A stretch of 64,000 nt of DNA from Actinokineospora spheciospongiae (GTDB taxonomy: Bacteria; Actinomycetota; Actinomycetes; Mycobacteriales; Pseudonocardiaceae): the NCBI RefSeq assembly GCF_000564855.1, contig NZ_AYXG01000074.1, positions 62,001 to 126,000 of the forward strand, written 5' to 3'. The notes below the pieces were generated by a model that searched no databases, was not told the origin of the DNA, and saw only the letters and a list, made by a program, of their open reading frames with translations. The position numbers were made by a program, and so were the translations under genes. Every line of letters begins with the position of its first letter. The stretch's first letter is position 1. Shown here one piece after another: positions 15,523 through 18,749 of this stretch.

Positions 15523-15828
15523 CTATTCACCCCGCGTCTTCGGCAGGATCGTCTCGATGTAGGGCACGAACACCCTGTGGTACATCGTTCCGTCCATGAA
15601 GTCGGCCGAGGCGAGCACCCGGGTGCGGAACCGGCGCAGCTCACCCAGCCGCCCCTGCGCGGCCAGCCGCGCCCGCACCTGGATCGACTGCCTGGTCACC
15701 TCGTCGCGGGCGGCGCGGACCATCCCCGGCGGGGTGACCGCGTCCATCAGCACGGCCAGCTTGCCGATCTCCCGCTCGAAGTGCCGCAGGTCGTGCGGCA
15801 CCCGGTAGAACCTGTCCAACAAGCCCAC
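15523..15828 (-). CDS. Hypothetical protein, 101 residues, charged and helical
   Basis: Not recognised. It begins MGLLDRFYRVPHDLRHFERE and has no signal peptide or membrane segment. The composition is Arg-rich and mostly helical (VRAARDEVTRQSIQVRARLAAQGRLGEL). Codon use fits the genome (high third-position GC), and GGGGAG lies 10 nt before GTG 15828, so it looks genuinely coding. It lies 28 bp upstream of the uridine-kinase-like gene and 61 bp downstream of the 93-residue unknown gene, probably in one minus-strand unit. Confidence 0.6.
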   Translation of the reverse strand: MGLLDRFYRVPHDLRHFEREIGKLAVLMDAVTPPGMVRAARDEVTRQSIQVRARLAAQGRLGELRRFRTRVLASADFMDGTMYHRVFVPYIETILPKTRGE

Positions 15829-15889: not shown

Positions 15890-16171
15890 TTACCCGGGTA
15901 GCGTCGCACGCTGTGCGCCACTGGCCCGCGCTGGATCGTCATCCGTCCCACCCCTGGCGACGGCGCTGTCGAGTTCGGCGATCGCCAGGGTGGCGAGGTC
16001 GACGAGTTGGCGCAGGTTGTCCCGGCCGAGGGTCAGGACGTACTCGCTGCTCTGCCCGAAGTGGAGCGTGGCGTTGTCGTTGAGCGCGCAGGCCTCGAAG
16101 CGCATGGGCACGGTGTGGGTCATCTCGACCCACGTTTCGACCGACACGCCTGGTTGGGTATAGAGCGCCAT
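15890..16171 (-). CDS. Hypothetical protein, 93 residues, divergent from XRE/DUF397 pair
   Basis: Not recognised by name. The start ATG 16171 has GGAGG 8 nt upstream. Visible pattern: MALYTQPGVSVETWVEMTH, then FEACALNDNATLHFGQSSEYVLTLGRDNLRQLVDLATLAI, an alternating beta/helix layout ending in an acidic, disordered tail. No signal peptide or membrane segment. The FEACALNDNATLHFG core looks like a small beta-sheet domain with sequential hydrophobic strands. It shares a symmetric promoter/operator with the XRE regulator on the other strand, so co-regulation is likely, and it could be a third member of that system. Confidence 0.65.
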   Translation of the reverse strand: MALYTQPGVSVETWVEMTHTVPMRFEACALNDNATLHFGQSSEYVLTLGRDNLRQLVDLATLAIAELDSAVARGGTDDDPARASGAQRATLPG

Positions 16172-16203
16172 GGTTCTCGCCTCCACCGGCTAGGGTTCTC
16201 AGC

Positions 16204-16262
16204 GGGCTTGGAAGCCCGACTGTCTCCCGGATAAGTTAGGGCGACAGTCGGGCTTGAAACAA
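16204..16262. promoter_or_regulatory. Symmetric divergent promoter with 13-bp perfect inverted repeat (probable XRE operator)
   Basis: AAGCCCGACTGTC (16212-16224) is repeated inverted at 16243-16255, with an 18-nt spacer. A further GGGCTT at 16204-16209 forms a tight palindrome with the first arm. Candidate plus-strand promoter: TTGGAA (16208-16213), 18 nt, TAAGTT (16232-16237). Candidate minus-strand promoter: TTGTTT (16262-16257), 18 nt, TAACTT (16238-16233). The arms overlap both -35/spacer regions, so a dimer bound here could repress both genes. Confidence 0.65.
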
Positions 16263-16293
16263 GTCGTCTGATCGGGTGAACAGGGAGTTCGAC

Positions 16294-17160
16294 ATGGGGC
16301 AGGCCCGTCCGACCTTCGAGCGCAGGCAGCTCGGCCTCACCCTGCGCAGACTGCGCGACTCGGCGGGTGTCACCCAGCAGGCGGCGGCGGACGCGGTGGG
16401 CAAGGTCCGGTCGCGGATCGTGCAGTTGGAAGACGGCACCGCGACCGCCAGCGAGGAGGACCTGACCACGCTGCTCGACTGCTACGGCGTGGCCGGGGAC
16501 GAGCGCGAGACCGTGCTCGACCTCGGCGCCCAGGCCCGCAAGCGCAGGCAGCGGCGGGTGCACATCGACCAGTTGCCCGACGCCTACCAGCGCTTCGCCG
16601 ATCTCGAAGCCAGTGCGTCCGAGATCAACTGCTTCGAGACCGGCATCATCCCAGGCCTCTTGCAGTCTCCCGGCTATGTGCAAGCTGTCATCGCTGAGTG
16701 CGACGGCATCTGGTGGCAGCACGCGGATTCGCAGGGCCCCGAGCGGCTCGCCTACCGGATGGACCGGCAGGCGCGACTGCTGCGAGCCGAAGATCGACGG
16801 ATCATGCGGTTCGTCATCACCGAGGACGCGCTCCGGGCGAGCATGGGAAGCGTCGAGGTCATGCGGGAGCAGTTGCACCACCTGCTCAACCTGCTCGACA
16901 AGCTCCCGGACCTGAACGTTCGCGTGCTGACCAACGACGCGTTCGGGAACCCCGCGCGAGGGTACGGCTTGTGTGTTTTCGGTTTCGGTGAGCGCGGAAC
17001 GCCGGTCGGGTACTCCGCGCCGGTCTTGGGGCCGTCGATGTACTACGACGGCGAAGCCGAGGTCGAGAGTATGCTGCGTGCGTTCTACCGCGTGTGGGAA
17101 CATGCGTTGAGCCGCAAGGATTCCCGGCGGCTCGTGCAGCGTATCGTCAAGGAGTTGTGA
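16294..17160 (+). CDS. XRE-family regulator, Scr1-like with C-terminal DUF5753 domain
   Basis: A 288-residue protein. ATG 16294 is chosen because GGGAG lies 6 nt upstream. Residues of about 10-70 are the helix-turn-helix (LGLTLRRLRDSAGVTQQAAADAVG, KVRSRIVQLEDGTATASEEDL). The remaining about 210 residues match the actinomycete DUF5753 pattern: FADLEASASEINCFETGIIPGLLQSPGYVQAV, then RQARLLRAEDRRIMRFVITEDALRA and LPDLNVRVLTND, and the terminal VWEHALSRKDSRRLVQRI. Such genes are nearly always followed by DUF397, as here 2 bp downstream. Some pairs are described as antitoxin-like systems; the biochemical role is unsettled. Confidence 0.88.
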   Translation: MGQARPTFERRQLGLTLRRLRDSAGVTQQAAADAVGKVRSRIVQLEDGTATASEEDLTTLLDCYGVAGDERETVLDLGAQARKRRQRRVHIDQLPDAYQRFADLEASASEINCFETGIIPGLLQSPGYVQAVIAECDGIWWQHADSQGPERLAYRMDRQARLLRAEDRRIMRFVITEDALRASMGSVEVMREQLHHLLNLLDKLPDLNVRVLTNDAFGNPARGYGLCVFGFGERGTPVGYSAPVLGPSMYYDGEAEVESMLRAFYRVWEHALSRKDSRRLVQRIVKEL

Positions 17161-17162
17161 TC

Positions 17163-17369
17163 ATGACCCTCGTGCGGGACACCGGCTGGTTCAAGAGCGC
17201 CCGCAGCGGGGGAGCCAACGAAAACTGCGTCGAGGTGCGGATCACCGCGTCCGCGACCGGCGTGCGGGACACCAAGAACCGGACCGGCGGCGTGCTGAGC
17301 CTGCGCAGCGCCGCGTGGGGAACCTTCGTGACCGGCGCCAAAGACGGCCGGTTCGACCTGTCCCTGTGA
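17163..17369 (+). CDS. DUF397 domain protein
   Basis: A 68-residue protein starting at ATG 17163, two bases after the XRE stop, so translationally coupled. It shows the DUF397 pattern: W(F)KSARSGGANENCVEVRI, then VRDTKNRTGGVLSLRSAAWGTFVTGAKDGRFDL. Small DUF397 proteins accompany XRE/DUF5753 regulators across actinomycetes and have been proposed as toxin-like or partner proteins. There is no direct activity in the sequence. Confidence 0.9.
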   Translation: MTLVRDTGWFKSARSGGANENCVEVRITASATGVRDTKNRTGGVLSLRSAAWGTFVTGAKDGRFDLSL

Positions 17370-17387: not shown

Positions 17388-18749
17388 GTGGAACAGGAGT
17401 TCGACCTCGACCTCTTCGGCACGACCTCCGGCCCGCCCGCGCAGCCGCCGGGGCCGCGCCGGGTGAGCCCGTCCGCGCCGCTGGCCGTGCGGATGCGCCC
17501 GGCCACCCTCGACGAGGTGCTGGGCCAGGACCACCTGCTCGGCCCCGGCGCCCCGCTGCGGCGGCTGGTGGAGGGCGCCGCGCCCGCCTCGATCCTGCTC
17601 TACGGGCCGCCCGGCACCGGCAAGACCACCCTGGCCACCCTGGTGTCCTCGGCGATCGGCAGGCGGTTCGTGGCGCTGTCGGCGCTCTCGGCCGGGGTCA
17701 AGGAGGTGCGCGGGGTCATCGACGACGCCCGCAGGCGCCTGACCCACTCCGGCGAGTCCACCGTGCTGTTCATCGACGAGGTGCACCGCTTCTCCCGCAC
17801 CCAGCAGGACGCGCTGCTCGGCGCGGTCGAGGACCGGATCGTGCTGCTGGTCGCGGCCACCACCGAGAACCCGTTCTTCTCCGTGGTCTCCCCGCTGCTG
17901 TCGCGCTCGATCGTGCTGCAACTGCACCCGCTCGGCGACGAGGACGTCCGCGCGCTGGTGCGCCGGGCGGTCGCCGACGAGCGCGGCCTCGCGGGCGCGG
18001 TGACGCTGGAGGCCGAGGCCGAGGACCACGTCGTCCGGCTCGCGGGCGGCGACGCCCGGCGCGCGCTCACCGCGCTGGAGGCCGCCGCCGACTCCGCCAC
18101 CGCCACCCGCGGCGGCGTGATCGACCTCGCCACCGTCGAGGCCACGCTGGACAAGGCCGCCGTGCGCTACGACCGCTCGGGCGACCAGCACTATGACGTG
18201 ATGAGCGCGTTCATCAAGTCCATCCGCGGTTCCGACGTCGACGCCGCGCTGCACTACCTGGCCAGGATGGTCGAGGCGGGGGAGGACCCCAGGTTCATCG
18301 CCCGGCGGCTGATCGTGCACGCCACCGAGGACGTCGGCATGGCCGACCCGACCGCGCTGCCCGCCGCGGTGGCCGCCGCCCAGGCCGTGCAGCTCATCGG
18401 CATGCCCGAGGGCAGGCTGGCGCTGGCCCAGGTCACCGTGCACCTGGCCACCGCGCCCAAGTCCAACGCGGTGATCACCGCCATCGACAGCGCGCTCGCC
18501 GACGTCCGCGCGGGCGCCGCGGGCACGGTGCCGCCGCACCTGCGCGACGGGCACTACGCGGGCGCGAAGGAACTGGGCAACGCCACCGGCTACCGCTACC
18601 CGCACGACGCCCCCGAGGGCGTGCTGCGCCAGCAGTACCCGCCGGACGCGTTGCGCGGCCGCGACTACTACAACCCCACGCAACGCGGCGCCGAGCGCCC
18701 GCTGGCCGACCGGGTGCCGAAACTGCGCAGGGTCGTGCGCGGCGACTGA
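17388..18749 (+). CDS. rarA: Replication-associated recombination protein A (MgsA/RarA AAA+ ATPase)
   Basis: A 453-residue AAA+ clamp-loader-like ATPase acting at stalled replication forks. N-terminal [17 protein letters not shown]-type sequence (here [17 protein letters not shown]) begins near residue 35. Walker A is GPPGTGKTT near 74-82, Walker B is [10 protein letters not shown] near 126-135, sensor 1 is [10 protein letters not shown], and the arginine finger region is LLSRS. The C-terminal tetramerisation part includes [24 protein letters not shown] and [23 protein letters not shown]. Full length. Confidence 0.95.

Follow-up and report, generated by a model that had tools for sequence, protein, structure and literature searches.

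The locus considered here raises the question of what is controlled from the short region between a gene for a small acidic protein and a divergent XRE–DUF397 gene pair, and by which protein. XRE–DUF397 pairs have been amplified extensively in actinomycetes; in Streptomyces they influence both development and antibiotic production, and to our knowledge few operators have been described for them. The locus lies in a stretch of 64,000 nucleotides from Actinokineospora spheciospongiae, called the window below, and comprises three genes:

15890..16171, minus strand: gene for a small acidic protein of 93 aa (pI near 4.5) that founds the family described here; conserved domain at about residues 1-70, start codon conserved
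16294..17160, plus strand: WhiJ-like regulator gene, XRE helix-turn-helix and DUF5753 (Pfam HTH_31 7e-13, DUF5753 1e-38)
17163..17369, plus strand: gene for a small DUF397 (BldB-like) protein (Pfam DUF397 8e-19)

The ATG of DUF397 at 17163 is located 3 bp past the XRE stop codon on the same strand. We favour ATG 16294 as the XRE start, with the alignment to relatives beginning at the counterpart of residue 7; GTG 16276 was rejected because it is out of frame in some relatives. The initial annotation had proposed that XRE/DUF397 has the 93-residue gene as its fixed divergent partner, and the comparison of relatives bears this out: an XRE/DUF5753 gene is divergent from the small gene within 460 bp at 47 of 55 places (counting L126, where XRE is in pieces), and DUF397 follows XRE in 46 of the 47 divergent loci. 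Most of the remaining places consist of short matches or of loci with a lost or broken XRE. At L021, L127 and L131 the small gene adjoins DUF397 and XRE is missing; these are probably decayed loci. A 101-aa ORF at 15523-15828 was considered as a fourth member and dismissed, as it is absent from the relatives' loci. The source genome, with 48 DUF5753 matches, holds two further, distant members of the small-gene family (L142 on G000:C86 and L141 on G000:C43), also divergent from DUF5753 genes; neither has a clear paired repeat, and the one on C86 is without DUF397.

Pfam gave no match for the 93-residue protein, and NCBIfam and PADLOC nothing significant; it belongs to a family of proteins of about 8 kDa with pI 4.1-5.4, in which L3, L36, G39, R50, L53 and A63 are invariant. 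Relatives were found with the single sequence in 44 of 297 genomes of Pseudonocardiaceae and with a profile in 39 of 200, covering 17 of 46 genera, while among 395 genomes sampled across the class the source genome alone matched, a search in which few candidates were scored per genome and rare distant members could be missed. Among the genomes sampled, the family was thus detected only in Pseudonocardiaceae, and no homologues were found on plasmids or phages. The structure model, good for about residues 20-70 only, predicts three strands and a long helix, and gave no significant match against PDB and viral structures. A relationship to DUF397 was rejected at 0.1% probability in the profile comparison; the modelled likeness of the two proteins appears limited to the strand-strand-strand-helix order.

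In the intergenic region, AAGCCCGACTGTC at 16212-16224 returns as its exact reverse complement at 16243-16255 after a gap of 18 bp, precisely as first described, and the inverted repeat reaches 17 bp without gaps if one mismatch is admitted. The repeat is beyond chance at this locus, since 0 of 40 intergenic shuffles reached its score, the intergenic strand folds with z = -5.0, and AAGCCCGACNGTC occurs in 2 copies in the whole 7.5-Mb genome, both of them here. The window also holds 13-bp perfect short-gap repeats in three other clusters (44274, 47680 and 63790). Both strands carry the hexamer pairs noted earlier, TTGGAA/TAAGTT on the plus and TTGTTT/TAACTT on the minus strand, each with an 18-nt spacer; they are weak, and a strict sigma-70 scan returned no promoter. 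A terminator scan found none. Inspection by eye for a BldD site yielded a half-site only, and that candidate was dropped. The elements of the control region, as read in the light of the relatives, are as follows:

16191..16196, plus strand: TAGGGT, a plus-strand TANNNT, best conserved candidate -10 of the XRE-DUF397 operon (23/29 loci)
16212..16224, plus strand: left arm of the inverted repeat, AAGCCCGACTGTC
16214..16228, no strand assigned: putative left operator O_L, near-palindrome GCCCGACTGTCTCCC, centre 16221; the same site is a full palindrome in relatives, e.g. GTCCGACTGTCGGAC
16232..16237, plus strand: TAAGTT, plus -10 of the initial annotation, possibly an alternative XRE promoter (17/29 loci)
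16233..16238, minus strand: TAACTT, candidate -10 of the small gene's promoter (28/29 loci)
16239..16253, no strand assigned: putative right operator O_R, near-palindrome GGGCGACAGTCGGGC, centre 16246, lying within the spacer that separates -10 and -35 in the small gene's promoter
16243..16255, minus strand: right arm, exact reverse complement of the left arm
16268..16279, minus strand: box CTGATCGGGTGA (TCACCCGATCAG on the minus strand), possible activator site (31/43 loci)

Comparison of 43 distinct intergenic regions of relatives showed that about 29 of them have the same kind of repeat at the same place, with compensating changes. The arms are individually fully palindromic in several relatives (GTCCGACTGTCGGAC in L030, GTCCGATATCGGA in L123), which suggests that the repeat consists of two copies of one near-palindromic operator. 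The inverted repeat thus seems better read as two operators with the core CGACNGTCG, 25 bp apart and flanking a -10 box; in relatives the operator centres are mostly 23-29 bp apart. Agreement between the outer half-sites of the two operators is 80% within a locus and 64% between loci, a difference reached in 0 of 10,000 permutations. The repeat proposed by the initial annotation is hence real, but the single dimer placed on it probably gives way to two dimer sites, or to one in some classes: one class of relatives has a single operator site, and L011, L020, L023, L027 and L125 show no clear paired repeat.

The mirror symmetry proposed for the promoters is borne out only in part. A minus-strand TANNNT between the operators is kept in 28 of 29 loci (5.6 expected) and is found in the segment upstream of the left operator in only 2 of 29. 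On the plus strand, the -10 in the gap is present in 17 of 29 loci (6.0 expected), whereas a TANNNT upstream of the left operator is present in 23 (7.4 expected). An element that the initial annotation did not contain is the CTGATCGGGTGA box, which 31 of 43 loci have 27-31 bp upstream of the minus -10 (0.11 expected); at the present locus it falls at about -42 to -53 of the start predicted for the small gene. Among loci with a good match it is between 34 and 78 bp away from the XRE start, and because of this variation we discarded it as an XRE leader element; with its nearly fixed distance to the minus -10, it appears to belong to the promoter geometry of the small gene. In the source genome, box and -10 occur at the same spacing only twice, both at DUF5753 loci. 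The motif YCACYCGAY was seen within 350 bp upstream of several of 30 DUF5753 genes of that genome (L032-L061), mostly pointing away from XRE, and could possibly represent a wider regulatory box of the DUF5753 regulator family.

The type of operator tracks XRE and not the small gene. Residue 25 of the helix-turn-helix is Q in 25/25 loci with CGAC- or TGAC-type operators and R in 6/6 CGAT-type loci. This match partly reflects shared ancestry: the CGAT and TGAC types each form one clade in the XRE tree, which they do not in the small-protein tree, and only three operator types are known, so that the correlation alone is weak. The case for matching between XRE and operator therefore rests on natural swaps, that is, near-identical locus pairs that differ in XRE and operator. 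Among L175-L185 (genomes G097, G150, G188, G038, G079 and G046), the XRE gene and the intergenic operators have been exchanged between close species; in these pairs, from two genera, the small proteins are 97-100% and the DNA beyond DUF397 91-97% identical, while the XREs share 48-49% identity and the operators differ. In G097 and G150, which belong to one genus, the small proteins are 100% and the XREs 48% identical and the operator types are different, with DNA that is 97.6% identical over the small gene as far as its start and 97.4% identical over 5.9 kb from within DUF397 onward. G188/G038, of the same genus, and G079/G046, of another, show the same pattern, and L026/L030, compared in small protein, XRE and operator, may add a third genus (small proteins 94%, XREs 63% identical, operators different).

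One breakpoint of these swaps is located a few bases ahead of the start codon of the small gene, the other in the 5' region of DUF397, so that the operator travels with XRE and the N-terminal portion of DUF397. Roughly the first 20 DUF397 residues move along with XRE while the rest remains with the flank, a hint that the N-terminus of DUF397 is contacted by XRE. That XRE is exchanged between species along with the operators it seems to read, while the flanking genes stay, indicates that regulator and repeat are matched as lock and key. In phage immunity modules, too, repressor and operators exchange together and neighbouring genes are kept, and the present locus resembles them in this respect; it is, however, not a phage locus as far as seen, and the similarity is evolutionary only. 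More tentatively, and with the balance of our judgement against it, we suggest that XRE and operators behave as alleles that can be exchanged at a locus that itself stays fixed, with selection maintaining their diversity. If true, the same small effector and DUF397 core would be governed by incompatible switches in related strains, much as in phage heteroimmunity.

Taken as a whole, we consider it likely that this is a dedicated three-gene locus in which XRE would bind the operators and shut off the small gene and itself, DUF397 would modulate this, and the small protein would be the output. XRE/DUF5753 dimers are predicted to occupy one or two near-palindromic operators between the divergent units. 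O_R would sit within the core of the small gene's promoter, with the -10 on one side and the upstream box on the other, and O_L close to the start predicted for that gene, so that binding is expected to shut off the small gene; as both operators are in or just behind the putative XRE promoter, autorepression is expected as well. DUF397, made from the XRE strand, may modulate XRE in the way thought for BldB paralogues with WhiJ paralogues, and the small gene, whose acidic product would be what is regulated, may be activated by another factor that recognises the CTGATCGGGTGA box. This reading is favoured by the divergent XRE at 47/55 places, the half-site agreement, residue 25, the swaps, the locus-unique operator and the WhiJ9 precedent, and it is opposed by the five relatives that have no clear paired repeat and by the activation of its partner by WhiJ9, so that the sign of control could be the opposite.

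A WhiJ/BldB locus with a third gene is an already known type. The closest precedent is iosA-whiJ9-bldB9 of Streptomyces venezuelae (PMC10294661), which likewise has WhiJ-type XRE and DUF397 genes and, adjoining XRE on the other side, an unrelated small gene. There, WhiJ9 binds the iosA-whiJ9 intergenic region and XRE autorepression is seen, both with putative counterparts here. The two loci differ in that the WhiJ9 site consists of three direct repeats CGXXCTCAAC (PMC10294661) in place of near-palindromes, in that iosA is activated whereas the small gene here is probably repressed, and in that IosA (15 kDa, basic, pI 10.3) is set apart by size and charge from the acidic family of about 8 kDa described here. 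The whiJ/bldB/abaA paralogue clusters of Streptomyces similarly combine a WhiJ-type XRE, a BldB-type DUF397 and a third gene; AbaA, however, carries a HATPase_c domain (PMC10294661), for which neither the 93-residue protein nor its relatives gave a match. XRE-DUF397 pairs such as Scr1/Scr2 share the two-gene core with both Pfam domains, and a term search of two papers on them found no divergent partner or operator (PMC6262351, PMC10364602).

The precedent bears most directly on the possibility that XRE activates the small gene and represses only itself, with the operators serving both functions. WhiJ9 is needed for iosA activation and is mildly self-repressing (PMC10294661), and the small gene's promoter has no conserved -35 evident by eye, as is typical of activated promoters. 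Nevertheless, both operators occupy repressor positions, O_R with its centre in the spacer some 8 bp upstream of the -10 and O_L close to the predicted start, while the WhiJ9 site is located 113 bp upstream of the iosA start (PMC10294661) and the CTGATCGGGTGA box would be better placed for an activator; we therefore regard activation by XRE as unlikely, if a serious contender. A toxin-antitoxin function of XRE, DUF397 and the small protein, in line with the comparative-genomic prediction of XRE-DUF397 as a type II system (PMC2701414), is quite improbable given that tests of one such pair, Scr1/Scr2, showed no toxin-antitoxin behaviour under the conditions employed (PMC6262351) and that the small protein has no match on plasmids or phages.

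We give slightly less credit still to binding of the repeat by a protein other than the neighbouring XRE, a thought prompted by the 48 DUF5753 matches in the genome. Against it stands support, if indirect, for the neighbouring XRE: in two genera the operator type changes together with XRE while the flanks do not, and the operator sequence is confined to the locus in the genome. Least probable of all is a role of the repeat mainly at the RNA level, as a hairpin that serves as attenuator or processing site in one transcript. The strand does fold well (z -5.0), but each arm is its own palindrome in several relatives, so that the arm pair is also a direct repeat; moreover, the class with a single site, the arms flanking a conserved -10, which marks a DNA signal, and the negative terminator scan speak against it. 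Repression by XRE of both units remains our preferred reading.

The literature searched, whose partial coverage makes silence weak evidence, yielded no account of the partner family, of a double operator made of palindromes, of the upstream box at its fixed distance or of the natural exchange of XRE with operators. The swap pairs allow direct tests of specificity, of the sign of control and of the role of DUF397, and the small acidic family without a Pfam match provides a candidate output of the XRE-DUF397 system.

Two minor observations concern the setting of the locus. DUF397 is followed by an AAA ATPase gene resembling rarA (17388-18749), and the same gene follows it in several same-genus relatives, which suggests a stable chromosomal place. 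The locus is also carried by a record titled Candidatus Melainabacteria (L096), a title that looks wrong, as the matching genome G011 falls in Pseudonocardiaceae.
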